From assembly GCA_030530875.1 (NCBI GenBank), contig JAUMUD010000007.1, positions 1 through 48,909 of the forward strand: DNA of 48,909 nucleotides, read 5' to 3'. This document shows positions 15,420-48,909 of this stretch, piece after piece. Positions within the stretch are counted from its first letter, which is position 1, and every line of letters starts with the position of its first letter. The notes below the pieces were generated by a model. It was not told where the DNA came from. It did no database searches and saw only the letters and a list, made by a program, of their open reading frames with translations. The position numbers and the translations under genes were made by a program. This DNA comes from Corynebacterium sp. GTDB taxonomy: Bacteria > Actinomycetota > Actinomycetes > Mycobacteriales > Mycobacteriaceae.

Positions 15420-15435
15420 ATGTGCGAGGTCTGAA

Positions 15436-26061: not shown

Positions 26062-26069
26062 TAACCACC

Positions 26070-26981: not shown

Positions 26982-26990
26982 AGGATAATA

Positions 26991-29012: not shown

Positions 29013-32000
29013 ATGTCACACGGCAAGCAGTCCATCGCAACCTTGATGGCCCGCATGATGGTCTCTTCTACCCTGGCGGTCAGCACAGCCACAGGACTAG
29101 TCGCTGTTACTGGAATTACTGCTATCCAAGCCGCTGCGCTTACAGCAAATGACTATAATGCCGGCTGGCAATACCGTTACTATAACCCCAATGGTACTAC
29201 TACCGATAATGGCAGCGCCTCAGCTGCCAATGTCACGTCCTCCGCTCCTGCGATCACTGGTGACAGCTCGACCAACTTTAGCCGTACGACAAACTTCCAG
29301 ATTCAGAGTTCTACAGGCGAATACAAGAAATATGTTTCTCCCGGCGATAGCATCCTCTATGATGTGACCTTTACCAATACTGGCTCCGTAACATGGGCTG
29401 GCTTCTCTTTGCCATCGACAATTCGCCCTGGTATTCAAACCGCCGAGGTCATCCTCAACGTTCCAGGCCAAAGTCCTAGAAGAATTAATAGTGCTGTTCT
29501 TACTGCTAACGAAATGACCCGTTACGTGCGCGGTGGAGCCACCTACTATATTGGCTCCATCCCGCCTGGCGCGAGTATCCAACTTAAGGCCAAGGGTACA
29601 GCAGGCAATCTTGATCTTGATAAAAGCTGGTACGCTGAAGAATCCGAAACTACCACGTGGTATACCTACCAGATGATGCCAGAACTCGTATTGGCACGAA
29701 ATAACTCTATCTGTGTTGCATCCCCTGATGCCCGTGGTCTATGCCAAACGACCGAATCTTCAGAGACTCGAACCTTTTGGAACAATAACCTCAAGACCAA
29801 CTCTTACGTAAGCTCTATCCCGCAATTCAGCTCCAACCTATTCCTTCCGAGTATTGCCACCCTTTCTTCCCGGAATACTCTGCCAAGCAATTCGACGGAG
29901 ATTGTCTTCAGAGTTACAAATTCTGCCGGTAAGGTCTTTATCGACACACATAACTACATCTACGATTCGAAAACTCAGACCAGCAAGGCCACACAGGCTC
30001 TGGTTCCTTATGACACCTATACTGCGGACGGACGTTATCGCGATATCCCAATTTACCGTGAGGTAAAGACCCTGAGTGACGCCACTGCTAAGGGTGTTTT
30101 GTCTTTCGAGTACACTCCTGCAAAGAATAGCGATCCTGTCGTTGTTGCTCGTAAAAATGCGGTGGATACTATCTATAACATCCAGCTTGGCGATGGCGCG
30201 ACGGGTATTACCACCGAGCAGCGTGATACAGCACTTGCTTCCCTGATTAACGCTACAACCGTTGAAGACGTTCAGAAAATCGTCAATGATCTGCGCAATT
30301 CTCCAGCACTGACCACTGCCAAGAACGCTGCCATTGCTGAGATTGACAAGATGACCTATTTGGACACAACGCAGAAGGCAAAGGCCAAGCAAGAGATTGC
30401 GGCACAAACTACCGTCGATAATGTCATTGCAACTGCCAAGCGTTGGGCTGTTACGGATGCGAACCAAAACACCACCTTCACCACTGGTACCCGCAAGACT
30501 GCTATCGATCTGATCAATCAATCGTCCACTGCTATCAATAATCTTCAAAAGACAGCGGAACCTGATAAGTCCCAGAACCTTAATCATGCCAGTCGCGTCC
30601 AGGCATTGACGAAACTGATTAATGGCATGACCTACCTGACTAACGATCAGAAAGTGCAGGCAGCCAAGGAACTTGACGCAGCACCAAATAGCAGTAACAC
30701 TGTTGGATATTACGGTGTATTCAAAAAGTGGGCACTGACTAATAACAGCCAGAACACCACAAAGGTCACCTCAGAGAAAAATGACGACGCTGCCAAAATC
30801 AACAGCCCGGGCACAGTCACGAATGACCAAGCCAGCACAAGTAATAGCACTGGCTCTATTCCTGATGCTTTGACTGTCCTTGGCAGCATGAGTTATCTGA
30901 CCCCAAAGCAGAAGGAAGATTATTCCAATGCGATTAAGGCTGCTAATTCACCTTCAGATATTGCAACAATTATCAAGAATGCTGCACTGGACAATACCAA
31001 CCAGAATCCCACGATGACGGATGGTGATAAGGACGTTGCACGCGGCAAGATTAATGCTTCCGATGCCACGAATCAGCAGCGCGCTGATTATTCCAATGCG
31101 CAAGGTAATGCTGCTGCAGCTACTGCTGCCCTGAATTCGATCAAGGGCCTGAAGTATCTCACCACTGATGCCACTGCGCCTACAGGCACCACCAGTGATA
31201 TCGCTGCTGCCCAGGCCGAATTGAACAAGGCCAATAGTGCGGCAGCAATTGACGCAGTATTCCAAAAGTATGCGCAGCGCAATGCTGATCAAAACACCAC
31301 CATGTCCACGGAGGACAAGACTGCCGCTAAGGCCACTGCCACCAAGGCCACCTTCAGCGATAATAATTCGATTAATGCTGCTGTCACTCAGACCAATGCT
31401 GATGGCTATAAGAAGACCGCCAAGGACTACTTCTCCAAGTTCAATTACATTGACTCGGGCCAGAAGTCTGCCTACGAGGCTGCCATTGATGCAAGCACCG
31501 TAGTATCAAATTCTGATATCGACAATGTCATCAAGACCTGGGCAAAGACCAACCTGGCCAATAACACCACCCAGACTGATGGTGAGAAGACAGCCTCCAC
31601 CAATAGGATCAATGACACCACCACATCGGCCCTCAGCGCCATTGACGCTTCCAACCGTCAGGGCTTGAGCAGCGCTGTTCAGGCAGCCATCACTGCCCTG
31701 AATAACCTCAACTATATTTCCAAGTCCGGCGATAATAATGACCTGGATGCCGCTAAGGCACGCTTAGCTCAGGCCACCACCCAGGAGCAGATCAACCAGG
31801 TCTTCCGTGATTACGCGACCATCAACGCGAATAAGAACACCACGATGACCACCGATGATCGCAGGGCCACAGTGGCTACTGTGGCCGCTGCTGATTTCAC
31901 CCAGTCCGGCACCGTTGATGCCGCTACCAGCGCAACCAATGCGGATGGCTACCGCAAGACCGGTGGCGAGAATATTCTCAAAAACCTTCACTACCTGACT

Positions 32001-35000
32001 GGTACTCAGCCAGAGGATGCGAAGAATGCCCTTTATGTTGCCACAGTTCAAAGCAATGATGATGTGGACAAGGTTGTTAAGACCTGGGCAACCACGAATA
32101 ATAGTCAGAACAACACCAAAACCACTGGTCAGAAGACTGCTGATGCCGCAACCATCAATGATGAGAAGACTTCAATAACTAATGCTGTTCAGCTTTCAAA
32201 TCAGCAAGGTATTGCCGAATACGCAACGACCAGCCAGGCTCTTATCGATAAGCTCGGCTATCTGAAGACCTCTGATCAGACTGCTTTTGATAAGGCCAAG
32301 TCTGATATTGATCTGCAGACCACCAAGGATGCCATTGACAATCTGGTAAAGGCTGCTGCAAAGCAGAACGCGGGCTATAACACCACCATGACCGATGGTG
32401 AAAAGAGCGCTGCCCAGACCGCCATTGATGGCCAGACCCCATCTGTGGGCGTGGTTACCTCCAATAACAATGGTATTAAGGCCAAGGCTGATGCCGCCTA
32501 CCAGGCAATTAAGGGCCTGGCGTACCTCAATGATGGTCAGCGTTCTGCTGCTGAAACCGCTCTGAAGCAGGTGACCTCTGAGGCACAGATTGACGCTATT
32601 AAGCGTCAGTATGCCCAGCTCAACTCTGATCAGAACACCACCCTGTCCACTGAGGACAAGGCCGATAACAAGACTTATATCAGTGACACTACTCATTCCG
32701 CTGATGACGCAATGACCCGTTCTGGTCAGGATGGCTTCAAGACCACCGCCATCAAGCTCATTGGCGAGCTCACCTATCTCACTGAACCTGAGCGCAGTGC
32801 TGCTGTCACCCTCATCAACAAGACTGAGACCGCTTCTAATTCGGAGATCACTCAGGTGGTGCGTGATTATGCGGGAAAGAATGCCGATAAGAACACCACC
32901 ATGACCACCGGTGATAAGACCACCGCCAAGAAGACCTTGGCAACTCAGGAGGCCAAGGACGCGGTAAATACTTCCAATGGCACTGGTCACTTGGCATACG
33001 CACAGACTTCCGATTCCCTCATTGAGAAGCTTAAGTATCTTGACGATACGACTAAGGCTGCCTATAAGACTCAGATCGACAGCAAGGACAATACTACAGA
33101 CATGGATGCTGTAGTTATTGCCGCTGCCGCTGAGAATGCTGGCAAGAACAGCACCATGACTGCCGGTCAGCAGACTGAGGCGCAGAATAAGCTGAAGGGT
33201 CAGCAGCCTTCTGATGCCGTAGATACTTCCAATGCCCAGGGTATTAAGGCCTATGCCGATAGCGCTGATGCCCTGATTGCTCAGCTGAAGTATATTCCTT
33301 CCGAGCAGCAGTCCTATATTGATCAGATTGCCAAGGCCACCACCAAGGAGCAGATCAACGCTATAGTCAAGACTGCTGCCAAGGCCAATACGGCGGCTAA
33401 TACCACCATGGTCACCGAGGATAAGACGGATGCCAATGGCAAGATTGACACCGCTATTCCTGAGAATAGCTCGGCGGATACTACCACCCTTGATAAGCTC
33501 AATACTGCGGTAAATGATTCCAATGCCGATGGCTATAAGATCACTGCCAAGGGCTATATTTCCCAGTTCCAGTACATCACCACTGATGCCGATAAGGCAC
33601 AGTACGCCAAGGACATTGATGATTCCGCCATTCAGTCCAAGTCCGATGTTGATGGTGTAATCAAGACCTGGGCCAAGACTAATCTGGCCAATAATAACAC
33701 CCAGACTACGGGTGAGAAGTCCGCTTCCACCACGAAGATCAATGACTCCGGTACCTCAGCTCTTGATGCTATTACCGCTTCCAACCGTCAGGGTCTGGTT
33801 ACCAAGGTCAATGCGGCTATTGCTAAGCTCGGTGAGCTCAATTACCTGACCACTAGCGGTGACGGCAATGATATGGATGCGGCCAAGGCTGAACTGGCCC
33901 AGGTGACCTCCGAATCGGCTATTGACACCATCTTCCAGAATTACGCCAAGAAGAATGCTGATCAGAACACCACCATGTCCACTGAGGACAAGGATGCTGC
34001 TAAGGCAACTGCCGGCGCAGCTACCTTCAGTGATGATTCCAGCATCACCAAGGCCATTAGCGAAACCAATGCCAATGGCTATAAGACCACGGCCATTGGT
34101 TATATCAATGACATGAACTACCTCGGTGATACAAAGACCGAGGCCACCAACAAGATCAATAAGGCGGGCACTGCATCCAAGGCGCAAATCGACGCCGTGG
34201 TAAAGAGCTACGCTAAGACCAATACTGAGCGCAATACCACTCAGACCCTGGGTGAGCAGACTGCTACCAAGACGCTCATTGATCAGGAGAGCACTACTGC
34301 CCAGGCAGCTGTTACTGCTTCGAACCGTCAGGGTATTGCCGACTACGCTACCACGTCCAAGGCCCTTATCGATAAGCTTGGCTATCTCAAGGCTTCCAAC
34401 CCAGAGGCCTTTAATAAGGCCAAGAGTGACATTGATAATGCCACCGATAAGACCGCAATGGACAGCATAGTCAAGCAGGCTGCCAAGGATAATGCGGGCT
34501 ATAACACCACCATGACCGGTGGTGAAAAGAGTGCTGCCAAGACGGCCATTGATGGCCAGGATCCTTCCACAGCAGTGGATACTTCCAATGCACCGGGTAT
34601 TAAGACTCAGGCGGATGCCGCTGATACCCTGATTGATGGGCTGAAGTACCTCAAGGGCGATCAGCCAACCACCGCAAAGTCGGAGATTGATTCACAGACC
34701 ACTGTTGAGGGCATCAATGCCGTGGTCAAGAAGTATGCGGATACCAATACCGACCAGAACCCTACCCTGTCCACGGAGGATAAGTCTGCCTATAAACAGT
34801 ATATTGACGCACTAGACACCACCCCTGCGCAGGCCGTGGAAAAGTCTAATAGCGATGGTTATAAGACCACTGCCAAGGGCTTGATTGGTCAGTTGAAGTA
34901 CCTCACCGGTGATCAGCCGAAGAATGCTACTGATGCTATTGATGATCCGGCAATCACCACTAACTCGCAGATCGACGCCCTCGTCAAGCAATATGCGCAG

Positions 35001-38000
35001 ACCAATGCTGCTCAGAACAGCACTATGACCCTGGGCCAGCAGAATAAGGCCAAGTCTGATATCACCACTCAGACTGCCGCACAGGCTGTGATTACTTCCA
35101 ATGCTGAGGGTATTAAGAGCTATGCAGAAAATGCCAAGAATAACCAGATTGGCAAACTTGAGTATTTGACCACCGAGAAGGATGGCTATAATACCGAGAT
35201 CGATAATGCCCTGACCAAGGAAGCTGTCGACGCCACTGTCAAGAAGGCTGCCCTGGATAACCTGGGCAAGAACAACTACCAGACCGATGGTGAGAAGGCA
35301 GTATCCACCACTGCCATCAATAATGGCACCGCAGCAGAATCGGTGGATACCTCCAACCGTAAGGGTCTGGCGGAGGATACTGCCAAGGCACTTACCGCAA
35401 TTCAGGGCCTGAAGTACCTCACCACCGATAAGACTGCTGCTGCCGGTACTCAGAGTGATATTGCCAAGGCCACTGCAGAATTAGCCAATGTCACCACCAA
35501 GGATCAGATTGATGAGATCTTCCGGAAGTATGCGGAGCTCAACGCTGATCAGAACACTACTATGTCCACTGAGGACAAGGATTCAGCCAAGAATTCTGCT
35601 GCCGCAGCTAAGTTCGCCGATGCAAATTCCATCACTGCCGCACAGAATGCTACTAATGCCAATGGCTTTAAGTACACGGCCAATAACCTCATTGATGACC
35701 TCAAGTACCTGGATAGCACGGCAAAGCAGGCTGCCCAGGCAGTAGTTAATGCTGCTGGCACTGCTACTAATGCCCAGATCACCCAGGCTGTTCGTGATGC
35801 CGCTAGTGCCAATGCGGATAAGAACAGCACCATGACTGATGGTGATAAGACCCTGGCTAAGAGCACCCTGGCCACCCAGGATGCCAAGACCGCAGTGGAT
35901 ACTTCCAATGCCACGGGTAATAAGGCTCATGCCGATGATGCTGATGTCCTTATTGATAAGCTTACCTACCTCAGCACCGATGAGAAGGCCGACTATAAGA
36001 AGCAGATTGCTCAGCAGAGCACCGTTTCTGGCATTGATGCGGTGGTCATTGCAGCAGCCAAGGATAATACCTCCAAGAACTACACCATGACGGATGGTCA
36101 GAAGGAGGAGGCTACCACCACTATTAGTACCCAGAGCCCATCGGAGGCTGTTGCTACCTCCAATGCTAAGGGTATTAGGGCTGATGCTAACCTCGCGCTG
36201 ATTGATATTCAGAAGCTGCACTATCTCACTGATCCACAGCTGGAGCAGGCTGAGGCTGAGCTCAATAAGGTCACTAGCCTCGACCAGATTGAGAAGATCA
36301 AGCGCACCTATGCCCTGCTCAACTCCAATCAGAACACTACTCTGTCCACTGAGGACAAGCAGGCCAATGAGGACTATATCAATAACACTGCGAATACCAG
36401 CAGTGCTGCCCTGACTAAGTCCGATGAAAACGGCTATAAGACCACGGCCATTGGCTATATCAATGCGCTGAATTACCTGGATACAACCACGGATAAGGCA
36501 ACGGCAATTGCCAAGATCAATGAATCCGGCACTGCATCCACAAGCGATATCGACGCAGTGGTTAGGCAGTGGGCAAAGACCAATGCCGAGAAGAACACCA
36601 CCATGACCAATGGTGAGAAGAATAAGGCTAAGAGCGATGTTGATGCCAGCGGTGTGGATCAGGCTGCATCCATCACCAACCGCACTGGTCTTATCAGTGA
36701 TGCCACTACTGCCAAGGGGCTTCTCGACGAGCTGAAGTACCTCACTGCTTCCACGAATGCTGATGATCAGAAGGTCCTGAGTGATGCCAAGGACGCTATT
36801 GATAATGCGACCGACACCGCAACCATGGATTCGGCTGTCCGCACCGCGGCTAAGCGCAATACGGAACTGAATCCAACCAAGACTGCTGGTCAGAAGACTG
36901 CCGATGAGAATACCATTACCACGGCTACGCCACGGGACGCAGTCGACCTTTCCAATAAGGATGGTATCCAGCCTTATGCCACCACGGCCGCTGGCCTGAT
37001 TGATAGTCTGACCTACCTGGGTGATACCGACAAGGGCACCTATAAGGCGCAGATCGCTCAGCAGACCACCACTGCTGGCATTGACGCTATTGTGAAGCAG
37101 GCTGCTCTTGCTAACACCACGGCCAATAAGACCATGTCCACTGAGGACAAGGCGGAGGCTACTAGCACCATCAATGCCTCCATTTCGGATGATGCATCCA
37201 CCACACCAAACCTTCAGGCAGCTGTCGATGCCTCTAATGCTGATGGTTATAAGGTCCAGGCCAAGAAGCTCATTCATGAGCTCAAGTACCTCAACACCGA
37301 TCAGTACAAGACCGCTGAGGCCAATATTGATGCGGGTTCCACGGCAACCAAGGCTGATATTGACAATGTGATTCTTGAGTGGGCTGCCGTTAATGCCGAT
37401 GCCAATACCACCATGACCAAGGGTGAAAAGGCACAGGCCAAGGCCACTCTTGCTAAGCAGAGCGCCCAGGAAGCTGTCAATACTTCCAATGCCCAGGGCC
37501 ACCTGGCAGAGGCCATTGCCGCCAAGGCACTGGTGGATCAGCTCACTTACCTAAACCTGAGCGATCCTTCTGCTGTTGCAGCAGCCAAGGACACCATTGA
37601 TAATGCCACCGACACCACCACCATGGATAATGCGGTGCGCGATGCGGCAAAGAAGAATGCCGATGCCAACACCACCATGACTGATGGTGAGAAGCAAAAG
37701 GCCAAGGATGAGATTGATGGGGCTACCCCTACAAACTCTGTCACTATCTCCAATGCATCGGGCCTGAAGGAAAAGGCCGATGCGGCCTATACCGCTATTA
37801 CTGGTCTAAATTACCTGGATAGTGCTGATCTTGACGCGGCTTCTACTGCCCTGAAGAATGTGACCTCTGAGGATCAGATCGAGCAGATCAAGCGTAACTA
37901 TGCGCAGATTAATGCGAATAAGAATAATACGCTGTCCACTGAGGATCACACGGCCTATAACTCCTATATTCAGGACACTGCCAATTCCGCTGATTCGGCA

Positions 38001-41000
38001 ATGACCAAGTCCAATGCGGATGGTTATAAGAAGACCGCCAAGGATATGATTGCGGCGCTGAAGTATCTGAAGGATAGCCAGCCAACAGATGCTGATGCCG
38101 AGATCATGAAGGCCGAGACAGCATCGGTCGCTCAAATTGATGCAGTGGTCAAGAAGTATGCCCAGACCAATGCCAGCCAGAATATCACCATGACTGATGG
38201 TGATAAGAGCACGGCGACGAAGCAGATTTCTGCGGACACCACTGCTGCTTTGGCTGCGGTGAATATTTCCAATGCCGATGGAAACAAGGCCTTTGCCGAT
38301 TATGTGAACAACCTCATTGGCATGCTTAACTACATTGACAGCAACGGTAAGACCACGCTGACCAACCGTGTTAATGCCCTTGATAATGAGGATGCCATGC
38401 GCAATGTCCTCCTTGAGGCGGCAAAGACCAATACGCAGAATAACCAAACCCAGACTGATGCGGAGAAGGCGAACACCGATTACTACATCGACACCGCTGT
38501 ATCCACTGGCAAGAACGACCCAGCCAAGAATACTGATGCCATCCATGCATCCAATAGGGTTGGTCTGAAGCCGGAGGCTGATGCGGCCTATACCGCTATT
38601 GCTGCCCTCAAGTACCTGACTGATCAGCAGCGTGCCGACGCCAAGGTGGACCTGACCACGGTCACTACTGAGGCCATGATTGAAGCTATCAAGCGTAATT
38701 ATGCCCAGAAGAACTCCGATCAGAACACCACCCTGTCCACTGAGGACAAGGCCGCCAATACGACCTACATTACGGATAGCAATAACAGCGGGGATCAGGC
38801 TATGGCCCAGTCCGATAAGGACGGCTATAAGACCACCGCCAAGGGCCTGATTGCCCAGCTCAATTACCTCACCAAGCCAGATCAGGTCAATGAGGCTAAT
38901 GCCGAGATCGACCTTGCTTCCACTGCATCCAAGGATGATATTGACAAGGTAGTCCGTGAGTACGCCGAGACCAATGCGAAGCAGAACACCACCATGACCA
39001 TTGGTGAGAAGACGGCAGCGGGCCAGCTGATTCCATCCCAGGATGCGCAGACTGCGGTCAATACTTCCAACCGTAAGGGTCTTCAGGAAGAGGCCACCGC
39101 TGCTAAGGCACTGGTGGCGAAGCTTAAGTACCTGCCAAATACTGAAACCCAAGCCGGTGATCCTGCTGCCATCACCACGGCGGATACAGATATTGATAAT
39201 GCTGTATCCACCGACACGATGGATGAGGCTGTCCGCACGGCCGCTAAGCGCAATGCTGACTTGAACAGCACCATGACCCTCGGTCAGCAGACCGCCGCCA
39301 AGGCCGCTATTACTGCTGCTAGCCCAACGGATTCGGTCAAGATTTCCAATGAGGAAGGTATTAAGACCTACGCGGATACGGCTGATGCTCTTATTGATGA
39401 TCTCAAGTACATCCCGGATCAGCTTGCCACCTATAAGGCACAGATCGCTGATGCACTGACCACTACGAGGATCGACCAGATTCTTCGTAATGCCGCTGTG
39501 GCCAATACCAATGCCAACCCAACCATGTCCGATGAGGATAAGGCCACTGCCATTAAGACCATTAATGACAGTGACACCAAGAATGCGGATGCGGTTAAGG
39601 CTTCCAATGCAAATGGCTATAAGACCACTGCCAAGAGCATCATTGACCAGCTTGATTACCTGACCAGCAACCCTGATCAGAAGAAGGCTGCCCATGATGA
39701 GATTGATGCTTCCAGCATCACTACTAATGCGCAGATTGAGGCCATTGTCCGCAAGTACGCTAAGACCAATGCGGACCAAAACAACACCATGACTGCTGGT
39801 GAGAAGACCGCTGCCAAGAATGATGTGGATAGTAATCCAATTGCGTCGGCACCAGGCATTACCAACCGTGAGGGTCTTCAGGCCAAGGCTGAGGCTGCTA
39901 TTGCCCAGGTCAATGAGCTTAAGTACCTGAAGCCAAGTGATACTCAGAGCGGGGATCAGAATGCCATTGATACTGCTATTGCGGCTATCAATAATGCCAC
40001 CGATGAGAACACCATGCTTGAGGCTGTTCGCAGCGCTGCCAAGCGCAATACGACACTGAATACCACCAAGACCCAGGGCCAGAAGGATCAGGTTACTAAC
40101 CAGATCACTACGGCAACCGCTGATGAAGCAGTGACCCTATCCAATGCTGATGGTATTCAGAAGTACGCCGATGAGGCCAACACCCAGATCGGTGATCTCA
40201 CCTACCTCAGCAATGCGGATAGGAAGACCTACACCGACCGTGTTGCCGCAGCCACCGATGTGGCCACCATTTACCAGGCGGTCAAGGACGCAGCCCTGCT
40301 CAATACCTCCAAGAACAGCACCATGTCCACGGAGGATAAGGCCACTGCCACCGACACCATCAACGCTGCTGCCACTACCCCAGCAACCGCGGTGGATACC
40401 TCCAATGCCAATGGCCGTAAGACCACTGCCAAGGCACAGATTGCTGCCATGAACTACCTGACGGACACCCAGCGCCGCCAGGCCAATGACGCCATTGATA
40501 GCAAGGCAAGCAATGCCGATATTGACAGTGTGGTTCTAAGCTATGCCGCAACCAATGCGGATCAGAACACCACTATGACCAATGGTGAGAAGGCTGCTGC
40601 TAAGGACAAAATTAAGAGCGGTACGGCCGCTGATTCTGTGGCCACCTCCAACCGTGAGGGTCTCGCCAAGCAGGCCCAGGCCGCCAAGGACCTGGTTAGC
40701 CAGCTCAATTACATCAAGACCGGTGATACTACTGCTGTCACCACGGCAAATAACGCCATTGATAATGCGGTTGATACCGCGACCATGGATGCTGCTGTTC
40801 GTACCGCAGCCCAGCGCAATGCGGAGCTCAACAGCACCATGACCGATGGTGAAAAGACTGCTGCCAAGCAGAAGATTACTAATGCCACCCCAACTGAGTC
40901 GGTCAGCATCTCTAATGCTGATGGTATTAAGTCCTATGCCGATGATTCCGATGCGCTGATTGGCAAGCTCAAGTACCTGAGCACCCAGGAGAAGAAGGGC

Positions 41001-44000
41001 TACACCGACCGCATCGCCCAGCAGACCACCACTGCGGATATTGACGCCATCGTCAAGGAAGCTGCCAAGGCCAATACTGCCAAGAACAGCACCATGTCCA
41101 CGGAGGATAAGCAGAGTACCTCGGGCACTATCGACGCCTCCGCAACCACCCCGACCCAGGCTGTTGCGGCATCCAATACTGATGGTTATAAGACCAGCAC
41201 CAAGAAGCTGATCGATACCTTCAAGTACCTCAACCCAACCCAGCTGCAGAATGCTAAGGACCAGGTTGATGATGCTAATACTGCTACCGAGCAGCAGATC
41301 GACGGTGTGGTACGCACCTGGGCTAAGACCAATGCTGATCAGAATAAGACCATGACTGATGGTGAGAAGGCTGCAGCCAAGGCAGCCCTGGTCAACCAGA
41401 GTGCCTCGGAGGCTGTAACCACCTCGAATGCTGATGGCAATAAGACCAATGCCGATGCAGCTGATGCTCTCATTGATAAGCTCACCTACCTCACCACTGA
41501 GAAGCAGGGCTATAAGGACCGTATTGCCCAGGCCACCAGCGCTGAAGCCATCAATGCCATTGTCATTGAGGCTGCCCGCGATAATGTCTCCAAGAACACC
41601 ACCATGACTGATGGTGATAAGACCAAGGCCAATAAGGATATTGACGCCCAAAGCCCAAGCCAGGCAGTGGACACTTCCAATGGCACTGGTATCAAGGAGA
41701 AGGCTGATAAGGCCACCACCGATATTCAGGCCCTGAAGTACCTGACCACGCAGCAGCGTTCTGATGTCGAGGCTGCGCTGAAGCTGGTCACTACCCAGGA
41801 GCAGATTGACGCTATCAAGCGCGAGTACGCCCAGTACAACTCCGATCAGAACACCACTCTGTCCACGGAGGATAAGGAGAAGAACAAGAGCTTCATCGCC
41901 AATACCACCGATAACAGCGCTGATGCTGCCATGGAACAGTCCGGCAAGGACGGCTATAAGGCAACCATCAAGCAGCTGCTCACCACGCTGAAGTACCTCA
42001 CTACGAACGAGCAACTCCCTGCAGCACAGGCTGAGGTGGACAAGGCTGAGACTGCTTCTAATGACCAGATTGATGCGGTTGTACGTACGTACGCCGCCAT
42101 CAATGCCGACCAGAACAGCACCATGACCAATGGTGAGAAGGCCAAGGCCAAGAACGACCTGAAGACCCAGGGCGCACAGGATGCAGTCAATACATCCAAT
42201 GCCAACGGCCACATCACCCAGGCCAATGCCGCCAAGGCACTGGTGGCCAATCTTAAGTACCTGGTGCCAAGTGCAACCCAGACCGGTGATCAGAGCGCTA
42301 TTGATGCGGCTATTACGGCCATCAATAATGCCACTGACACTGACACCATGGATGCCGCCGTACGCACCGCAGCCAAGCGCAATGCGGAGCTTAACACCAC
42401 CATGACTGATGGTGATAAGAGCGCTGCCAAGGACGCGATCACCAACGCCACCCCAGAAAAGTCCGTAGATATTTCCAATGCCGATGGCATCAAGGAGAAG
42501 GCTGACGCCGCTGAAACTGCCATTAAGGCCCTGAAGTACCTGACCACCCAGCAGCGCAGCGATGTCGAAACTGCACTCAAGCAGGTCACTACCCAGGAGC
42601 AGATTGACGCCATCAAGCGCGAGTACGCCCAGTACAACTCCGATCAGAACACCACTCTGTCCACGGAGGATAAGGAGAAGAACAAGAGCTTCATCGCCAA
42701 TACCACCGATAACAGCGCTGATGCTGCCATGGAACAGTCCGGCAAGGACGGCTATAAGGCAACCATCAAGCAGCTGCTCACCACGCTGAAGTACCTCACT
42801 ACGAACGAGCAACTCCCTGCAGCACAGGCTGAGGTGGACAAGGCTGAGACTGCTTCTAATGACCAGATTGATGCGGTTGTACGTACGTACGCCGCCATCA
42901 ATGCCGACCAGAACAGCACCATGACCAATGGTGAGAAGGCCAAGGCCAAGAACGACCTGAAGACCCAGAGTGCCGAGCAGGCAGTGGATACGTCCAATGC
43001 CAACGGCCACATCACTCAGGCCAATGCCGCCAAGGCACTGGTGGATCAGCTGAACTACCTGGTCACCAAGGATGGTCAGGCCGGTGACGCTACTGCTATT
43101 AAGGCGGCTAAGGATGCCATCGACAATGCCGTGGATACTGACACCATGGATGCCGCCGTACGCACCGCCGCCAAGCGCAATGCGGAGCTCAACACCACCA
43201 AGACTGATGGTGAGAAGCAGGCCGCCAAGGATACGATCACTTCGGCAAGCCCAGAAAAGGCCGTGGAGATTTCCAATGCTGATGGTCACAAGAGTGAGGC
43301 CGATGCGGCGGATGCCCTTATTGAGCAGCTGAAGTACCTGAACAAGCAGGAGAAGCAGGCCTATAAGGACCAGATCGCACTGAAGACCACCCCGGCTGAT
43401 ATTGATGCCGTGGTCAAGACCGCAGCCGTGGATAACACCAATAAGAACACCACCATGGCCACGGAGGATAAGGACCAAGCTAAGACCACCATCAACACGG
43501 CGGCCACTACCCCACAGGATGCCGTCACAGCATCCAATACTGATGGTTATAAGACCACCATGAAGACCCTGCTGGGCACGCTGAAGTACCTGGATAAGGA
43601 CGTGCAGCTCCCACAGGCAGAGGCTGATGTGGACAAGGCTGAGAATGCCACCAAGGAACAGATTGATGCCGTGGTACGCACCTGGGCAGCAACCAATGCG
43701 GGCCAGAACAGCACCATGACCAAGGGTGAGCAGGACCAGGCCAAGACCATTCTTGCCGGCCAGGATGTGAATACTGCTGTGGCCACATCCAATGCGGATG
43801 GTATTAAGACCTACGCAGACGCGGCTGATGCCCTGATTGCTGCGCTCAAGTATCAGAGCACCGATCAGAAGGGTGTCTTCAATAACCGCATTGCCGCTTC
43901 CACCACCAAGGCACAGATTGATGCCATTGTGAAGGAAGCAGCCCGCGATAATACCAATGCCAATACCACCATGGCCACCGAAGACAAGGATGCGGCTATT

Positions 44001-47000
44001 AGCACCATCTTCGCGGCTGATACCAGCACCAGTGCCGCGGTGGATAAGTCCAATGAGGATGGTTATAAGACCACCATTAAGCAGCTGCTGACCACCCTAA
44101 AGTACCTGAGCACAGATACCCAGGTCCCAGCAGCACAGGCTGATGTGGACAAGGCCTCGAATGCCACCAAGGCGCAGATCGACGCCGTGGTACGCACCTG
44201 GGCAGAAACCAACGCGGATCAGAATAAGACCATGACCGCGGGTGATAAGACCCTGGCCAAGTCCACCCTGCGCTACCAGGATGTCAATGCAGCAGTGGCC
44301 ACATCCAATGCTGATGGCAACCTCGCCTACGCAACCAAGGCTGATGAGCTCATTGATAAGCTCAAGTACCTGGACGATACGGCAAAGCAGTCCTATAAGG
44401 ATCAGATTGCCCAGCGTACCAGCGAGTATGCTATTGATAACCTGGTCCGCCAGGCAGCCGCTGATAATGCGGATGTCAACCCAACCATGACTGATGGTGA
44501 TAAGGCAACGGCCAAGACCACTCTTGCCGGCCAAAGCCCAAGTGATGCGGTGGATACCTCCAATGGCACCGGTAACCTTGATGATGCCAAGGATGCCTAT
44601 GAGGTTATTGATAAGCTCGACTACCTGAGCAAGGACCAGAAGGCCCAGGCCAAGAAGGACATTAATAATGCCCCGAATGGCACTGCCCTGGCCCAGGTTG
44701 TTACTGACGCACTAAATACCAATGCGGATCAGAACACCACCATGACCGATGAGGATAAGCAGGCGGCAAAGCAAATTGTCACCAGTGGCACAACCCAGGA
44801 GGCCATTACTACCACCAATGCCAATGGCCAGAAGGCAACCGCTAAGGGTCTGATCGATCAGCTTAAGTACCTCAGCGATGATGATCGCAAGGCTGCATAT
44901 AAGCTTATCGACGCTGCCACCACCAACCAAGCCGTCTACCAGGTGGTTTATGACTACGCGAATACCAACGTGGATCAGAACACCACTATGACTCCTGGTA
45001 ACCGCGTGGTAGCCAAGAACACCATTAGCACCCAGCAGCCAGCAGATGCTGTGACCACCTCCAATGCTGATGGCGATGCTAGCTATGCTACAAGTGCCAA
45101 TGCACTGGTTGAGTCCATGAAGTATCTCACCGATGCACAGAAGCTGGCAGCCAAGACTGATGTGGCCAATGCTCCTAATAAGGCCGGTATTGACCAGGCT
45201 GTGAAGGATGCTGCCCTGACCAATACCTCCCAGAACAGCACCATGTCGACGGAGGATAAGGCTGCAGCCACCACCATCAACGACCCAAGCACCACCCCTG
45301 GTGCAGCCACGGCTGCCTCCAATGCTGATGGTCAGAAGGTTGCTGCCAAGAAGCTCGTTGAGGATCTGCACTACCTGAGTGACGCTGAAAAGAGCCTCTA
45401 CACCACGCAGATTGACTCCGCAGCGGTTGCGTCCAATGCCGATATTCTTGCTGTGGTCAAGCAGGCTGCCACGGATAATACCGAGGCCAACCCAACCTTC
45501 ACCGATGCGGAAAAGGCAAGCACCAAGGCAGATATTGCCCTGGCCACCACCACTGGTTCCCAGGCTGTAGATAAGTCCAATGAGATTGGTGAGAATGGCA
45601 CCCTTGATGAGATCAAGGATGCTGCGAAGAAGTTCATTGATAGCCTCACTAACCTCACCGATACGGAAAAGACCATTGCCAAGGGCAATGTGGACCTCGG
45701 CACGGATTATAACTCGGTCCTCGATGTGGCCAAGGATGCTGCCCGCGATGATATCAACGGCTCCACCTTCGCCTCCCCAGCAAATCTCAGCACCCCTCTG
45801 ACTGAGGTGGATGAGGCCACCGGCCTTGCTGGTCTGAAGGAGGCCACCACGGATGCCGTCAAGCTTGATGCTTCTGCCCTGATCGATAAGCTCACGAACC
45901 TCAGCACTGAGCAAAAGACCGAGGCTAAGCAGCAGATTGCCGATGCGGACTCCACCCCGGCTGCTATTAGCATTGCTTCCAATGCGGTCAACTCCGATAT
46001 TGCTGAGATGACCCACCGCGATAGCTCCACGGACACGGATGGTTCCGGCACCGGTTCCGACACCGATACCGGTGCCGGAACGGGCGCCACAACGAATATT
46101 GCTGCTCTCGGTGCCAAGGACCTCAAGGCCCTGAGTGAGGATGCTTCGGCAGCCATTGATACCTTGGGTAACCTCAGCAGCCAGCAGAAGAGCACCGCTA
46201 AGGCACAAATTTCTTCTGCTACCAGCATTGATGGCGCGATTGAGGCCCTGCAGTCCACGCTGGGTACCAATGTCACTACCCTGCCAACCCCTGGTACGAC
46301 CCCAGCCACGGCCAAGGTTAATGACATGCTTGATTCCTCCCTGAAGGACTTCAAGACCGCTGCCAAGAATGCTATTGATGCGATGGTGAACCTCACCGAG
46401 GATGAAAAGACTGCGGCGAAGAACACCATTGATCAGGCAACCACTGAGGTCAGCGCACTGGCTACTGTCAATGCAGCAACCAGTACCGATATTGATCGCC
46501 TGAAGCACCTGGATACCGCAAGCCGTGCGGATAATGTGACTACTGCACAGTCCTCCGCAACGCTGAGCAATACGGTGACCACGGACCTGAGTTCTTATCG
46601 CAATGATGCCATTACCCGCATTAATGCCCTGAAGAACCTTGAGGATAGCCAGAAGGCTGATTACCTCACCAAGGTCAATGCGGCCACCACGGCCAAGGAT
46701 ATTGTTGATACTTCTGATGCTGCCAAGGCTGAGGATGATGCCATCCTGGCAGCAGCAATGTCCCGTGCCCGTGCTGGTATCCAGGCCGCTGAAGCCCTGC
46801 TTGATAAGGTCATTTACACCCGCGCGGATCAGAACCTCAAGGATGCCTTTGACCAAGCACGCCAGCAGCTTGCTGCTCTTCTTGAGTCCGCAGCCAATGG
46901 TGATGTCACCGCTAAGGAGCTCGATGCCAAGCTTGCTGAGCTCACCGCGGCACAGGATGCCCTTAATGGTAAGGAAGAAAATAAGACCAACTGGGCACTC

Positions 47001-47441
47001 ATCGGTGGTGTTGCTGCTGGTATTGCCGCCCTTGGTGCAGGTATTGCTTCCTTGGCTCACCAAAGTGATGGCCAGGCGCCAACCCAGGCGAATAATCTGG
47101 CGGGTGAGACCAATAGCAGTTCCAATGGCACTGCCGCCCAGGCCATCCAGCAGCCAAGCGAGCAGTCCTCGCAGGATGCTCAGCAGACCCCGGCACCACA
47201 GCCGCAAGCCCAGCCGGCAGCCAAGTCCGCGGTCTCCAAGCTTGCCCGCACCGGTGCGGACCTCTACTCCCCAATCTTCTGGGGTCTGGTCCTCATGCTT
47301 CTTGGTGGTACCGCCTATATTGCTTCTCGACGCCGCCATTCACTGGCCGGTCGTCATCACAATAATGGCACTCACAGCACCCACCCAATGTTGCGCCGTA
47401 TTGCTAAACACCGTGCTGCACGCCATAGGAAGGAGGACTAA
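29013..47441 (+). CDS. Giant sortase-anchored repeat surface protein (6142 residues)
   Basis: One uninterrupted 18.4-kb frame. Signal peptide: MSHGKQSIATLMARMM, a hydrophobic core, and a cut near residue 40. A beta-rich head follows (about 45-385), in which YDVTFTNTGSVTWAGF recalls DUF11/Ig-like modules. Residues about 395-5490 contain about 58 modules averaging 88 residues, each with a hallmark like NADQNTTMTDGEK, then SNADGYK and a LKYL helix start. From about 5500 to 5990 come degenerate GA-like units (LTNLTDTEKTIAK, MVNLTEDEKTAAK) and a helical region. Then a Gly/Ala hydrophobic stretch (about 5993-6015), a Gln/Pro/Ser linker, LARTG at 6077-6081, a hydrophobic helix, RRR, and an unusually long His/Arg-rich tail. 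LARTG fits the LAxTG form used by corynebacterial sortases, so the protein is probably attached to the cell wall as a long fibre. No enzyme motif is visible; adhesion or aggregation is inferred from architecture. Confidence 0.95.
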   Translation: MSHGKQSIATLMARMMVSSTLAVSTATGLVAVTGITAIQAAALTANDYNAGWQYRYYNPNGTTTDNGSASAANVTSSAPAITGDSSTNFSRTTNFQIQSSTGEYKKYVSPGDSILYDVTFTNTGSVTWAGFSLPSTIRPGIQTAEVILNVPGQSPRRINSAVLTANEMTRYVRGGATYYIGSIPPGASIQLKAKGTAGNLDLDKSWYAEESETTTWYTYQMMPELVLARNNSICVASPDARGLCQTTESSETRTFWNNNLKTNSYVSSIPQFSSNLFLPSIATLSSRNTLPSNSTEIVFRVTNSAGKVFIDTHNYIYDSKTQTSKATQALVPYDTYTADGRYRDIPIYREVKTLSDATAKGVLSFEYTPAKNSDPVVVARKNAVDTIYNIQLGDGATGITTEQRDTALASLINATTVEDVQKIVNDLRNSPALTTAKNAAIAEIDKMTYLDTTQKAKAKQEIAAQTTVDNVIATAKRWAVTDANQNTTFTTGTRKTAIDLINQSSTAINNLQKTAEPDKSQNLNHASRVQALTKLINGMTYLTNDQKVQAAKELDAAPNSSNTVGYYGVFKKWALTNNSQNTTKVTSEKNDDAAKINSPGTVTNDQASTSNSTGSIPDALTVLGSMSYLTPKQKEDYSNAIKAANSPSDIATIIKNAALDNTNQNPTMTDGDKDVARGKINASDATNQQRADYSNAQGNAAAATAALNSIKGLKYLTTDATAPTGTTSDIAAAQAELNKANSAAAIDAVFQKYAQRNADQNTTMSTEDKTAAKATATKATFSDNNSINAAVTQTNADGYKKTAKDYFSKFNYIDSGQKSAYEAAIDASTVVSNSDIDNVIKTWAKTNLANNTTQTDGEKTASTNRINDTTTSALSAIDASNRQGLSSAVQAAITALNNLNYISKSGDNNDLDAAKARLAQATTQEQINQVFRDYATINANKNTTMTTDDRRATVATVAAADFTQSGTVDAATSATNADGYRKTGGENILKNLHYLTGTQPEDAKNALYVATVQSNDDVDKVVKTWATTNNSQNNTKTTGQKTADAATINDEKTSITNAVQLSNQQGIAEYATTSQALIDKLGYLKTSDQTAFDKAKSDIDLQTTKDAIDNLVKAAAKQNAGYNTTMTDGEKSAAQTAIDGQTPSVGVVTSNNNGIKAKADAAYQAIKGLAYLNDGQRSAAETALKQVTSEAQIDAIKRQYAQLNSDQNTTLSTEDKADNKTYISDTTHSADDAMTRSGQDGFKTTAIKLIGELTYLTEPERSAAVTLINKTETASNSEITQVVRDYAGKNADKNTTMTTGDKTTAKKTLATQEAKDAVNTSNGTGHLAYAQTSDSLIEKLKYLDDTTKAAYKTQIDSKDNTTDMDAVVIAAAAENAGKNSTMTAGQQTEAQNKLKGQQPSDAVDTSNAQGIKAYADSADALIAQLKYIPSEQQSYIDQIAKATTKEQINAIVKTAAKANTAANTTMVTEDKTDANGKIDTAIPENSSADTTTLDKLNTAVNDSNADGYKITAKGYISQFQYITTDADKAQYAKDIDDSAIQSKSDVDGVIKTWAKTNLANNNTQTTGEKSASTTKINDSGTSALDAITASNRQGLVTKVNAAIAKLGELNYLTTSGDGNDMDAAKAELAQVTSESAIDTIFQNYAKKNADQNTTMSTEDKDAAKATAGAATFSDDSSITKAISETNANGYKTTAIGYINDMNYLGDTKTEATNKINKAGTASKAQIDAVVKSYAKTNTERNTTQTLGEQTATKTLIDQESTTAQAAVTASNRQGIADYATTSKALIDKLGYLKASNPEAFNKAKSDIDNATDKTAMDSIVKQAAKDNAGYNTTMTGGEKSAAKTAIDGQDPSTAVDTSNAPGIKTQADAADTLIDGLKYLKGDQPTTAKSEIDSQTTVEGINAVVKKYADTNTDQNPTLSTEDKSAYKQYIDALDTTPAQAVEKSNSDGYKTTAKGLIGQLKYLTGDQPKNATDAIDDPAITTNSQIDALVKQYAQTNAAQNSTMTLGQQNKAKSDITTQTAAQAVITSNAEGIKSYAENAKNNQIGKLEYLTTEKDGYNTEIDNALTKEAVDATVKKAALDNLGKNNYQTDGEKAVSTTAINNGTAAESVDTSNRKGLAEDTAKALTAIQGLKYLTTDKTAAAGTQSDIAKATAELANVTTKDQIDEIFRKYAELNADQNTTMSTEDKDSAKNSAAAAKFADANSITAAQNATNANGFKYTANNLIDDLKYLDSTAKQAAQAVVNAAGTATNAQITQAVRDAASANADKNSTMTDGDKTLAKSTLATQDAKTAVDTSNATGNKAHADDADVLIDKLTYLSTDEKADYKKQIAQQSTVSGIDAVVIAAAKDNTSKNYTMTDGQKEEATTTISTQSPSEAVATSNAKGIRADANLALIDIQKLHYLTDPQLEQAEAELNKVTSLDQIEKIKRTYALLNSNQNTTLSTEDKQANEDYINNTANTSSAALTKSDENGYKTTAIGYINALNYLDTTTDKATAIAKINESGTASTSDIDAVVRQWAKTNAEKNTTMTNGEKNKAKSDVDASGVDQAASITNRTGLISDATTAKGLLDELKYLTASTNADDQKVLSDAKDAIDNATDTATMDSAVRTAAKRNTELNPTKTAGQKTADENTITTATPRDAVDLSNKDGIQPYATTAAGLIDSLTYLGDTDKGTYKAQIAQQTTTAGIDAIVKQAALANTTANKTMSTEDKAEATSTINASISDDASTTPNLQAAVDASNADGYKVQAKKLIHELKYLNTDQYKTAEANIDAGSTATKADIDNVILEWAAVNADANTTMTKGEKAQAKATLAKQSAQEAVNTSNAQGHLAEAIAAKALVDQLTYLNLSDPSAVAAAKDTIDNATDTTTMDNAVRDAAKKNADANTTMTDGEKQKAKDEIDGATPTNSVTISNASGLKEKADAAYTAITGLNYLDSADLDAASTALKNVTSEDQIEQIKRNYAQINANKNNTLSTEDHTAYNSYIQDTANSADSAMTKSNADGYKKTAKDMIAALKYLKDSQPTDADAEIMKAETASVAQIDAVVKKYAQTNASQNITMTDGDKSTATKQISADTTAALAAVNISNADGNKAFADYVNNLIGMLNYIDSNGKTTLTNRVNALDNEDAMRNVLLEAAKTNTQNNQTQTDAEKANTDYYIDTAVSTGKNDPAKNTDAIHASNRVGLKPEADAAYTAIAALKYLTDQQRADAKVDLTTVTTEAMIEAIKRNYAQKNSDQNTTLSTEDKAANTTYITDSNNSGDQAMAQSDKDGYKTTAKGLIAQLNYLTKPDQVNEANAEIDLASTASKDDIDKVVREYAETNAKQNTTMTIGEKTAAGQLIPSQDAQTAVNTSNRKGLQEEATAAKALVAKLKYLPNTETQAGDPAAITTADTDIDNAVSTDTMDEAVRTAAKRNADLNSTMTLGQQTAAKAAITAASPTDSVKISNEEGIKTYADTADALIDDLKYIPDQLATYKAQIADALTTTRIDQILRNAAVANTNANPTMSDEDKATAIKTINDSDTKNADAVKASNANGYKTTAKSIIDQLDYLTSNPDQKKAAHDEIDASSITTNAQIEAIVRKYAKTNADQNNTMTAGEKTAAKNDVDSNPIASAPGITNREGLQAKAEAAIAQVNELKYLKPSDTQSGDQNAIDTAIAAINNATDENTMLEAVRSAAKRNTTLNTTKTQGQKDQVTNQITTATADEAVTLSNADGIQKYADEANTQIGDLTYLSNADRKTYTDRVAAATDVATIYQAVKDAALLNTSKNSTMSTEDKATATDTINAAATTPATAVDTSNANGRKTTAKAQIAAMNYLTDTQRRQANDAIDSKASNADIDSVVLSYAATNADQNTTMTNGEKAAAKDKIKSGTAADSVATSNREGLAKQAQAAKDLVSQLNYIKTGDTTAVTTANNAIDNAVDTATMDAAVRTAAQRNAELNSTMTDGEKTAAKQKITNATPTESVSISNADGIKSYADDSDALIGKLKYLSTQEKKGYTDRIAQQTTTADIDAIVKEAAKANTAKNSTMSTEDKQSTSGTIDASATTPTQAVAASNTDGYKTSTKKLIDTFKYLNPTQLQNAKDQVDDANTATEQQIDGVVRTWAKTNADQNKTMTDGEKAAAKAALVNQSASEAVTTSNADGNKTNADAADALIDKLTYLTTEKQGYKDRIAQATSAEAINAIVIEAARDNVSKNTTMTDGDKTKANKDIDAQSPSQAVDTSNGTGIKEKADKATTDIQALKYLTTQQRSDVEAALKLVTTQEQIDAIKREYAQYNSDQNTTLSTEDKEKNKSFIANTTDNSADAAMEQSGKDGYKATIKQLLTTLKYLTTNEQLPAAQAEVDKAETASNDQIDAVVRTYAAINADQNSTMTNGEKAKAKNDLKTQGAQDAVNTSNANGHITQANAAKALVANLKYLVPSATQTGDQSAIDAAITAINNATDTDTMDAAVRTAAKRNAELNTTMTDGDKSAAKDAITNATPEKSVDISNADGIKEKADAAETAIKALKYLTTQQRSDVETALKQVTTQEQIDAIKREYAQYNSDQNTTLSTEDKEKNKSFIANTTDNSADAAMEQSGKDGYKATIKQLLTTLKYLTTNEQLPAAQAEVDKAETASNDQIDAVVRTYAAINADQNSTMTNGEKAKAKNDLKTQSAEQAVDTSNANGHITQANAAKALVDQLNYLVTKDGQAGDATAIKAAKDAIDNAVDTDTMDAAVRTAAKRNAELNTTKTDGEKQAAKDTITSASPEKAVEISNADGHKSEADAADALIEQLKYLNKQEKQAYKDQIALKTTPADIDAVVKTAAVDNTNKNTTMATEDKDQAKTTINTAATTPQDAVTASNTDGYKTTMKTLLGTLKYLDKDVQLPQAEADVDKAENATKEQIDAVVRTWAATNAGQNSTMTKGEQDQAKTILAGQDVNTAVATSNADGIKTYADAADALIAALKYQSTDQKGVFNNRIAASTTKAQIDAIVKEAARDNTNANTTMATEDKDAAISTIFAADTSTSAAVDKSNEDGYKTTIKQLLTTLKYLSTDTQVPAAQADVDKASNATKAQIDAVVRTWAETNADQNKTMTAGDKTLAKSTLRYQDVNAAVATSNADGNLAYATKADELIDKLKYLDDTAKQSYKDQIAQRTSEYAIDNLVRQAAADNADVNPTMTDGDKATAKTTLAGQSPSDAVDTSNGTGNLDDAKDAYEVIDKLDYLSKDQKAQAKKDINNAPNGTALAQVVTDALNTNADQNTTMTDEDKQAAKQIVTSGTTQEAITTTNANGQKATAKGLIDQLKYLSDDDRKAAYKLIDAATTNQAVYQVVYDYANTNVDQNTTMTPGNRVVAKNTISTQQPADAVTTSNADGDASYATSANALVESMKYLTDAQKLAAKTDVANAPNKAGIDQAVKDAALTNTSQNSTMSTEDKAAATTINDPSTTPGAATAASNADGQKVAAKKLVEDLHYLSDAEKSLYTTQIDSAAVASNADILAVVKQAATDNTEANPTFTDAEKASTKADIALATTTGSQAVDKSNEIGENGTLDEIKDAAKKFIDSLTNLTDTEKTIAKGNVDLGTDYNSVLDVAKDAARDDINGSTFASPANLSTPLTEVDEATGLAGLKEATTDAVKLDASALIDKLTNLSTEQKTEAKQQIADADSTPAAISIASNAVNSDIAEMTHRDSSTDTDGSGTGSDTDTGAGTGATTNIAALGAKDLKALSEDASAAIDTLGNLSSQQKSTAKAQISSATSIDGAIEALQSTLGTNVTTLPTPGTTPATAKVNDMLDSSLKDFKTAAKNAIDAMVNLTEDEKTAAKNTIDQATTEVSALATVNAATSTDIDRLKHLDTASRADNVTTAQSSATLSNTVTTDLSSYRNDAITRINALKNLEDSQKADYLTKVNAATTAKDIVDTSDAAKAEDDAILAAAMSRARAGIQAAEALLDKVIYTRADQNLKDAFDQARQQLAALLESAANGDVTAKELDAKLAELTAAQDALNGKEENKTNWALIGGVAAGIAALGAGIASLAHQSDGQAPTQANNLAGETNSSSNGTAAQAIQQPSEQSSQDAQQTPAPQPQAQPAAKSAVSKLARTGADLYSPIFWGLVLMLLGGTAYIASRRRHSLAGRHHNNGTHSTHPMLRRIAKHRAARHRKED
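41814..42170 (+). repeat. Exact 357-bp direct repeat, copy 1
   Basis: Compared by eye base by base with 42612-42968, no difference was found. The copies are 798 bp apart (266 codons, three modules), which keeps the frame. This is far more similar than the other modules are to each other, so it marks a recent unequal exchange or gene conversion. Confidence 0.9.
42612..42968 (+). repeat. Exact 357-bp direct repeat, copy 2
   Basis: Partner of 41814-42170 at an offset of 798 bp. The flanks diverge right away: upstream one synonymous change separates the copies (GCT versus GCC), and downstream the sequence differs after the shared CCCAG. Confidence 0.9.
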
Positions 47442-47581: not shown

Positions 47582-48909
47582 ATGTCTTACGGTAAGCAGT
47601 CCATTGCCACGATGATGGCACGCATGATGCTGTCCTCCACCATCGCGGTTAGCACCATTGCGGGTACTACTGTTATCGCCCATCAGAGTACCGCCCATGC
47701 TGCGGATGTTTCCATCGCCCCATATGTGGGCACAATGGATTCCCAGCTTGATCTGATGAACTATCTGGGCGATCAGAAGGAGCAGGCAAAGCAGGAATAC
47801 GCTGCCGCGACCGACGACAATGCGAAGATCGAGGTGCTTCGCAAGTATGCCATCATCGATGCCCAAAATAATAACGGCAAGGATGGTTTTACTCCAGGTA
47901 CCCTGGCAAGCGCAATTTCCGCCATCCAAAGCGGCGCTTGGCCTAACTTCGTGCTTCAAGCGGAACAGCAAAACGAGGATATCCGTAAAAACTTCCCAGA
48001 CACCAACGACTACAAGCCATATAAGCGAAGCTATAAGCATAAAAGTACTGCCCAGGGCCTGATCAAGATGATCACGAATGATGTCGGCGATGGTGGTGCT
48101 TATACGTGGGACACTATCATCCCTTCAACGGATCCTACTTTTACCCAAAAGCCACTGCTGTACCTCACCAAGGAACAGCGCCAACAGTACACACAGGAAA
48201 TCCTGAACGCGCCACAGTCTTCAAAGGACTCTACTGATCGCACCCAGATGGGCTACTACAATCTCTTCTACGATGCTGCTCAGGTGAATAATGATCAAAA
48301 CTTCACCAAGACTGCGGATGAAAAAGCCCAATATGCTTCACTTTTGACGGCCAACAGCAATTGGGAAACGCTCGATGGTGGTAAGAATAACCCTTATTGG
48401 AGCGGCTCAACCAACGGTCGAAAGAACATTAGTAATATGTGGGGTACGATCCCGCCTGTTATTTCCTATATCAAGCAGATGAATTATCTGTCCGATGAGG
48501 AGAAGAACAAGCTCATCGAGGAAGTCAAGAATCTTGGTACGACTCCTTCTACCACGCTTACTGATCTGACTGGCAAGCTCCGCGACGCTGCCATTGAGAA
48601 TACTAAGAACAACACTACTCTGACCACGGCAGAGAAGGACGCACAGATCGCTAAGCTTAATGATCCTAATGCTAAGCCAGAAGACATGGCTGACGTGTCC
48701 AATAAGAAGGGTCTTAAGGATAAGGCTCTTGAATCAATCAAGAAGCTTAGCTACCTGACCAAGGATGGTCAAGTTCAGCCAGGTGAGACCAGTGATATTG
48801 CACAAGCTAAGAAGGACCTTGACCAAGTAACGACCGAGGAAGAAATTGATCAAGTCTTCCAGAAGTACGCCAACAAGAACGCCGATCAGAACACCACTAT
48901 GTCCCCAGA
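47582..48909 (+). CDS. Second giant repeat surface protein, N-terminal part (runs off the right edge)
   Basis: The frame from ATG 47582 stays open to the end of the window (442 whole codons). Its signal peptide MSYGKQSIATMMARMM differs from the first giant protein's at only a few positions and the DNA is similar, so the genes are tandem paralogues. Cleavage probably follows STAHA (about residue 40). A different, shorter N-terminal region follows (about 41-285), already with a degenerate module (LDLMNYLGDQKEQAKQEY). From about 290 the regular modules begin: NTKNNTTLTTAEK, VSNKKGLKDKA, KKLSYLT, and at the very edge NADQNTTMS. Its length, repeat number and anchor lie outside the window. Confidence 0.9.
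   Translation, partial: MSYGKQSIATMMARMMLSSTIAVSTIAGTTVIAHQSTAHAADVSIAPYVGTMDSQLDLMNYLGDQKEQAKQEYAAATDDNAKIEVLRKYAIIDAQNNNGKDGFTPGTLASAISAIQSGAWPNFVLQAEQQNEDIRKNFPDTNDYKPYKRSYKHKSTAQGLIKMITNDVGDGGAYTWDTIIPSTDPTFTQKPLLYLTKEQRQQYTQEILNAPQSSKDSTDRTQMGYYNLFYDAAQVNNDQNFTKTADEKAQYASLLTANSNWETLDGGKNNPYWSGSTNGRKNISNMWGTIPPVISYIKQMNYLSDEEKNKLIEEVKNLGTTPSTTLTDLTGKLRDAAIENTKNNTTLTTAEKDAQIAKLNDPNAKPEDMADVSNKKGLKDKALESIKKLSYLTKDGQVQPGETSDIAQAKKDLDQVTTEEEIDQVFQKYANKNADQNTTMSP

Follow-up and report, generated by a model that had tools for sequence, protein, structure and literature searches.

The gene at positions 29013..47441 (+ strand) of the window, the 48,909-nt stretch of Corynebacterium sp. DNA analysed here, encodes a giant surface protein of 6142 aa (about 648 kDa before processing), which we interpret, with reasonable rather than strong confidence, as a giant fibrillar adhesin anchored by sortase, in which a wall-anchored helical rod would present a tip. 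The frame opens with ATG and runs through 6142 codons without a stop, confirming the unbroken 18.4-kb frame of the original prediction. The predicted order of head, modules, GA units and sortase signal was likewise borne out, and an iterated profile turned the estimate of about 58 modules into exactly 58 full ones. From the N-terminus, all on the + strand, the protein comprises a putative signal peptide region (aa 1-44; 29013..29144), read from the sequence by its family motif MS(Y/H)GKxSI; a head domain (aa 45-398; 29145..30206) with 88% identity to its ortholog; a degenerate first repeat unit detected by the iterated profile (aa 399-484; 30207..30464); the 58 full modules (aa 486-5581; 30468..45755), of 82-98 aa each and with a triad organisation; four degenerate GA units found by profile and Pfam (aa 5617-5906; 45861..46730); a sub-threshold FIVAR-like stretch (46755..46967; 26.0 bits, Pfam cut-off 29.2); and a LARTG sorting signal (aa 6077-6081) with a membrane span and a basic tail (47241..47441). 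Ala and Thr account for 17% and 13.5% of the protein, respectively, and the predicted pI of the array is 4.7.

The C-terminal LARTG, hydrophobic span and basic tail give the protein the features of the LAXTG substrates of class E sortases. Recognition of LAXTG by class E sortases, and the presence of such sortases in Corynebacterium, are reported in the sections available of PMC5148588. NF058583, NF058582, NF058670 and TIGR01167 match at the sorting signal, all four below their curated cut-offs. Each of the two genomes searched contained one sortase match; that in the window's genome was to PF04203 (102 bits), with no class assigned. The view of the product as an anchored fibrous surface protein was upheld to the extent that anchoring is indicated by motif and fibrous form by homology. 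The head holds the protein's only two cysteines (aa 234 and 244), both present in the ortholog. It matched no Pfam family above cut-off, no known adhesive domain was found in it among Pfam families and PDB sequences, and no relative was detected among PDB sequences or among plasmids, phages and viral contigs, the last three possibly lacking records near the window's genome. With the same proviso, a plasmid origin was rejected because neither a 665-aa module stretch nor the head matched plasmid records, and a phage or viral origin of the head was rejected on zero matches. The upstream neighbours are three ABC transporter genes (solute-binding protein, permease and ATPase; 26031..28678, +), which lie outside the system. 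Elsewhere in the window, two adjacent + strand ORFs, 13254-15347 (697 aa) and 15400-17520 (706 aa), gave zero Pfam matches at E ≤ 0.001, and the latter overlaps a long open frame on the opposite strand (15436-17451).

Iteration of the profile on the protein gave 63 repeat matches, namely the 58 full modules, preceded by one degenerate unit and followed by four; the mean match length over all 63 is 85 aa, and the spacing of the full modules is also 82-98 aa. Each module is about 86 aa long and consists of an N-terminal part of ~38 aa followed by a GA unit, which occupies positions 39-78 of the 85-aa first member. In the 58-module alignment only N1 is invariant, with T3, G32, Y49, A79 and N82 at least 90% conserved; the mean pairwise protein identity between modules is 0.356, and 4 of 1653 pairs exceed 0.7. 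A Pfam scan of three stretches, covering part of the protein, showed GA (PF01468) as the sole family above cut-off, scoring 41.2, 39.1 and 81.8 bits in the three stretches (cut-off 24), and one sub-threshold FIVAR match, near the C-terminus. When the modules were scanned singly, GA was matched by 33 of the 58 at E ≤ 1. Among the first 25 of 46 families from these scans, DUF1542 was the second commonest with nine modules (best E 0.062), the remaining families matched one or two modules each (best E 0.0012), and FIVAR was absent. The results showed that the module is not undescribed as had been claimed, its C-terminal half being the GA module PF01468. The ~38-aa N-terminal part (NxTMTxGxKxxAKxxI...SNxxG) was left without a recurring family in these Pfam scans. 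What had been taken for an undescribed module is thus a novel arrangement built on a known unit, GA. Judged by homology, what is known is the GA half, and what differs is the ~38-aa part, the head and the LAxTG anchoring.

An ortholog is carried by the MAG Corynebacterium sp. isolate S11A_Sa_2_sub (contig JAUMTX010000016.1, 49153 bp), the sole relative obtained from a head scan of named genome contigs, and the same three ABC transporter genes lie upstream of it. The ortholog is 6150 aa long and shows 67.3% identity over 6104 aligned residues, with a largest indel of 10 aa. Repeat matches number 63 in both proteins and full modules 58 in both species; 43 of 62 module spacings agree exactly, and none of the others differs by more than 9 aa. 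For 52 of the 63 modules, the best cross-species match was found at the same index. Eight of the 11 misses were in, or pointed to, modules 42-48 (41343..43190, +), and the other three were a tie, a module whose best match sits two positions further along, and a degenerate unit. The index partners of modules 42 and 45 fell outside the three best matches. A tree of 116 modules, with few columns, many forks unresolved and the bootstrap unsettled, contained 39 of 58 equal-index sister pairs; its within-genome pairs were 44/47 and 45/48 in this genome and 43/46 in the other. Modules 42-48 resemble differently placed or same-genome modules over their index partners at a constant module number, and they seem to have been shuffled or converted. 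The claim that a very long gene is maintained was strengthened by the intact ortholog, the equal module number and an array dN/dS of 0.25. The gene is known from just two species, both with fragmented assemblies and one of them a MAG by title; the constancy of length therefore comes from a single comparison, and two genomes are a sample too small to establish selection on length.

Equal numbers also bear on the reliability of the assembly. The giant gene contains four exact repeats of at least 31 bp, one of 357 bp (at 41814 and 42612, within modules 42-48) and three of 37, 32 and 32 bp, and 12 of at least 25 bp; the ortholog contains 10 of at least 25 bp, the longest of 71 bp. A repeat number or an open frame created or collapsed by assembly is very unlikely in our judgement. 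The 357-bp repeat inside the gene and a 100-N run that interrupts the adjoining paralog in both assemblies would speak for such an artefact, but the two assemblies, whose proteins are 67% identical, agree on 58 full modules in a single open frame with no N, and the ortholog is free of exact repeats above 71 bp. Collapse is plausible chiefly around the 357-bp repeat, in steps of 798 bp (three modules), and might conceivably mask entire triads around 41814-42968; it is argued against because the module numbers are equal in the two genomes.

Mean module identity at lags 1, 2, 3, 6 and 9 was 0.331, 0.346, 0.418, 0.402 and 0.405, respectively, and none of 5000 order shuffles reached the observed values at lags 3, 6 or 9. 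Through most of the array, every third module is of a type with an (S/A)TEDK-like start (20 of 58 modules). For the most part, then, three-module units make up the chain, and triads of about 264 aa were probably the main steps of its growth.

Divergence of the array was compared with that of other genes. The dS between the species was 1.36 for polA and, for the ABC genes, 1.40, 1.13 and 1.13, a core baseline of four genes that all lie within this window. The array gave a dS of 1.05 and a dN of 0.259 (dN/dS 0.25; 5073 codons), and dN/dS ranged from 0.06 to 0.36 across every part measured. The array, with a dS near the baseline and a dN/dS of 0.25, has therefore diverged for nearly as long, under purifying selection, and its net change in module number between the species is zero. 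One may ask whether divergence had simply ended recombinational change in number, 58 then being a historical accident free of selection. We regard this frozen length as possible but doubtful. Few exact repeats are left in either gene (the 12 and 10 of at least 25 bp given above), and periscope proteins vary most where repeat identity is highest, according to the excerpted text of PMC8201768, both of which would fit it. On the other hand, modules 42-48 combine a still high DNA identity and apparent shuffling or conversion with an unchanged total number, in this one case, and there has been no net in-frame loss of modules across near-core divergence.

The head has a different profile, with a dS of 0.34 and a dN of 0.069. 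In 30-codon bins, pS was 0.05-0.36 over about aa 61-360 (29193..30092, +) and 0.51-0.86 just outside. None of the 4719 overlapping head-sized windows of the array was as low in pS as the head (0.274); the minimum of 0.316 is probably located near modules 51-55, at a dip in the 150-codon profile. Because its dS is low with sharp borders, the head was probably exchanged between species. Support from GC3 is confined to the window's genome, in which the head value (0.503) is below all 236 array windows; the head GC3 is ordinary in the second genome, with 41 of 236 array windows as low. Plain constraint, considered for the high identity of the head (88% compared with 78% for PolA), was dropped on the dS profile. 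That the low dS reflects constraint at the codon or RNA level instead of exchange is improbable. The ordinary GC3 in the second genome and the constraint that is also present at the protein level (dN 0.069) are compatible with it, whereas the abrupt rise in pS at the borders and the GC3 of the head in the window's genome argue for exchange, as does the dS of three other GA gene pairs (0.33, 0.37 and 0.54), which is below the baseline and fits exchange at surface loci.

When the module profile was compared with PDB sequences, eight matches were obtained at E ≤ 10: the best were BibA (6poo, 4.4e-05) and 231_C2_TrkA (0.019), followed by the weak matches EbhA (2dgj, E 0.11) and Embp (6gv5, E 0.14) and four weaker ones. 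By overall comparison, the protein comes closest to two staphylococcal giants, Ebh and Embp. The likeness consists in giant size, dozens of divergent GA-containing helical modules, an elongated rod and an N-terminal export signal, as far as these are described in the sections available of PMC7587433. However, the Embp/Ebh repeat is a FIVAR-GA unit of 125 aa, whereas the module here is 86 aa long, and Embp has a putative transmembrane region (PMC7587433, same sections) where the giant protein has the LARTG sorting signal. A separate head and the triad order further distinguish the giant protein. BibA, a group B streptococcal protein, resembles it in its GA-like helical units, but the 6poo chain is 273 aa compared with 6142 aa here, and the match contains no comparably long array. 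A head on a repetitive surface stalk is a likeness to the periscope proteins (SasG, Rib and Sgo_0707); the excerpted PMC8201768 describes Sgo_0707 as an N-terminal binding part with an LPXTG anchor. Periscope proteins have highly identical repeats in variable number, whereas the modules of the giant protein share 36% identity and are equal in number in two species; long, highly similar DNA repeats, a periscope trait, were not found beyond the four exact repeats of at least 31 bp, one of them 357 bp. Of the fibrillar-adhesin plan, an adhesive domain on a repetitive stalk, the repeat array is present, and the head showed no known adhesive domain. No corynebacterial GA-module protein of this kind was described in the literature searched, as judged by titles, term counts and the openings of abstracts.

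In the fibre model that we propose, the export-signal region, head, modules and LARTG are taken from the sequence, and the module number and most of the order from comparison. The signal peptide would export the chain, and the genome's sortase would join its C-terminus to the wall, as recognition of LAXTG by class E sortases suggests. By analogy with Ebh and Embp, the modules may fold as chained three-helix bundles that form a stiff rod. Six Embp repeats (765 aa) span 34.8 nm and appear as a rod in SAXS, according to the available part of PMC7587433; scaled from these, the 5096 aa of the array would give roughly 230 nm, and the rod may perhaps be 0.2-0.3 µm long. It would carry the N-terminal head beyond the outer envelope layers, where the putative binding of the head to a surface, a host molecule or a partner cell would take place, with the modules perhaps adding weak multivalent contacts. 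The head would specify the target and was probably exchanged between species, and the rod would set a fixed reach.

Alternatively, the modules could themselves be the binding part, as in Embp, with size providing multivalency instead of reach and the head being secondary, a reading that we consider unlikely, though of some weight. Embp repeats bind fibronectin with a Velcro-like multivalency, and one or four FG-repeats gave no detectable force whereas 15 did, in the sections available of PMC9302970. The family of the GA modules includes albumin binders, and the albumin-binding GA domains G148-ABD and ALB8-GA bind through residues of helix 2 and the loop after it (PMC3962080, in excerpt). The array dN/dS of 0.25 is compatible with module binding, but purifying selection is expected from folding alone. 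The modules differ strongly from each other (mean pairwise identity 36%), which would be unusual for one repeated binding site, although this argument is softened by the low-similarity repeats described for Embp too (PMC7587433, in part). The presence of a distinct head with its own history also argues against binding mainly by the modules. A wall-anchored rod with the head as its tip is the reading that we prefer.

The original prediction treated the locus as a single gene, which proved incorrect: at least 17 GA-module ORFs or parts were found in the window's genome, including a tandem paralog 140 bp downstream of the giant gene (47582..48909, +) that starts with the same signal motif and modules. 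The paralog runs past the window end across the 100-N run, which is found in both assemblies and is presumably a scaffold gap, and it ends in LARTGA. Counterpart pieces of the paralog in the second species are 36-52% identical, more diverged than the giant gene. The 17 ORFs or parts total 28797 aa, about 3.9% of the 2.19-Mb assembly, with the length of the paralog in this sum estimated across the N run; omitted from the 17 are a 448-aa ORF on contig C59 (weak profile match) and two smaller pieces, a 186-aa fragment (C62) and a 264-aa frame (C55). The fifteen further ORFs or parts (387-2420 aa) lie on contigs C8, C26, C46, C50, C54, C57, C58, C59, C61 and C62; several, on C8, C54, C57, C59 and C62, border on or lie close to a contig end or an N run.

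The distribution of the family was determined with profile searches. PF01468 was positive in 8 of 242 genomes of the genus and in 1 of 14 control genomes, that of the archaeon Methanocaldococcus jannaschii, and the control match therefore calls for caution over single GA matches. PF01468 candidates numbered 278 in the window's genome (G000) and 219 in the second species (G221), with 26 scored in each. The module profile was matched by six of the eight GA-positive genomes; long arrays occurred in G000 and G221 only, where 114 and 116, respectively, of the 150 candidates scored per genome matched, and the other four genomes had one to three matches. A profile of the head plus first unit matched 4 of the 242 genus genomes, and in G218 and G222 the GA part alone was matched. 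In a sample of 61 relatives without G221, one genome, the window's own, was matched by the head alone. Across 396 genomes of the phylum, the module profile matched one genome, its own, and the head profile matched 12 at E ≤ 0.1, its own and 11 weak partial matches (E 0.002-0.1; five contain a stop), among which there was no convincing head relative.

Two groups of GA proteins were noted. An N-terminal (Y/H)GKxS/T-I/V signal motif is common to seven of eight LAxTG-type GA proteins; it presumably recalls the YSIRK-type signal of Firmicutes and may direct secretion to a particular site. The second group has a GWGYVHDADFRAVVDGAIAN-like conserved tail, is without a sorting signal and without that signal motif, and occurs in three genomes (loci L038, L041, L042 and L044 in G000; L059, L060 and L062 in G221; L049 and L050 in G222); no Pfam family was found for this tail in the two proteins scanned. 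Three further pairs of GA genes align between the species over most of their length (2420/2435, 2093/2111 and 2371/2720 aa, the 2371-aa member being open at a contig end), with dS values of 0.33, 0.54 and 0.37, respectively. In the first (L036:7464-14723 and L057:2473-9777), the 2420-aa GA surface protein is about 91% identical, and whole-gene exchange between the species is probable because its dS of 0.33 is far below that of the four baseline genes. The 2093-aa protein (L039:581-6859, contig C58) is of the LAVTG type and has eight FIVAR and six GA stretches, with both families above the Pfam cut-off; it is closer in composition to Ebh and Embp than is the giant of the window. Among the loci compared, no comparably close partner turned up for the remaining GA genes, the tandem paralog and those of the second group among them; thus, constant length is a finding for the giant gene and not for the family as a whole.

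Taken together, what appears to be new is a GA-rod giant with an LAxTG signal, a distinct head, triad order and a constant module number in two genomes. We tentatively suggest, as a possibility that is less likely than the adhesin itself, that selection across species keeps the rod 58 modules (about 19 triads) long, that the ~300-residue head moves between species as a recombining cassette, and that the set of GA rods forms a surface toolkit. Length differences between strains are seen in many long surface proteins of repetitive build, according to the excerpted PMC8201768; with 58 modules in both species at near-core divergence, selection on stalk length becomes testable. The separate history of the head suggests tip swapping on a conserved rod. 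The findings extend giant GA-repeat proteins, best known from staphylococci, to LAxTG-signal proteins of Corynebacterium, a genus in which one small assembly devotes about 4% of its length to GA-module genes.
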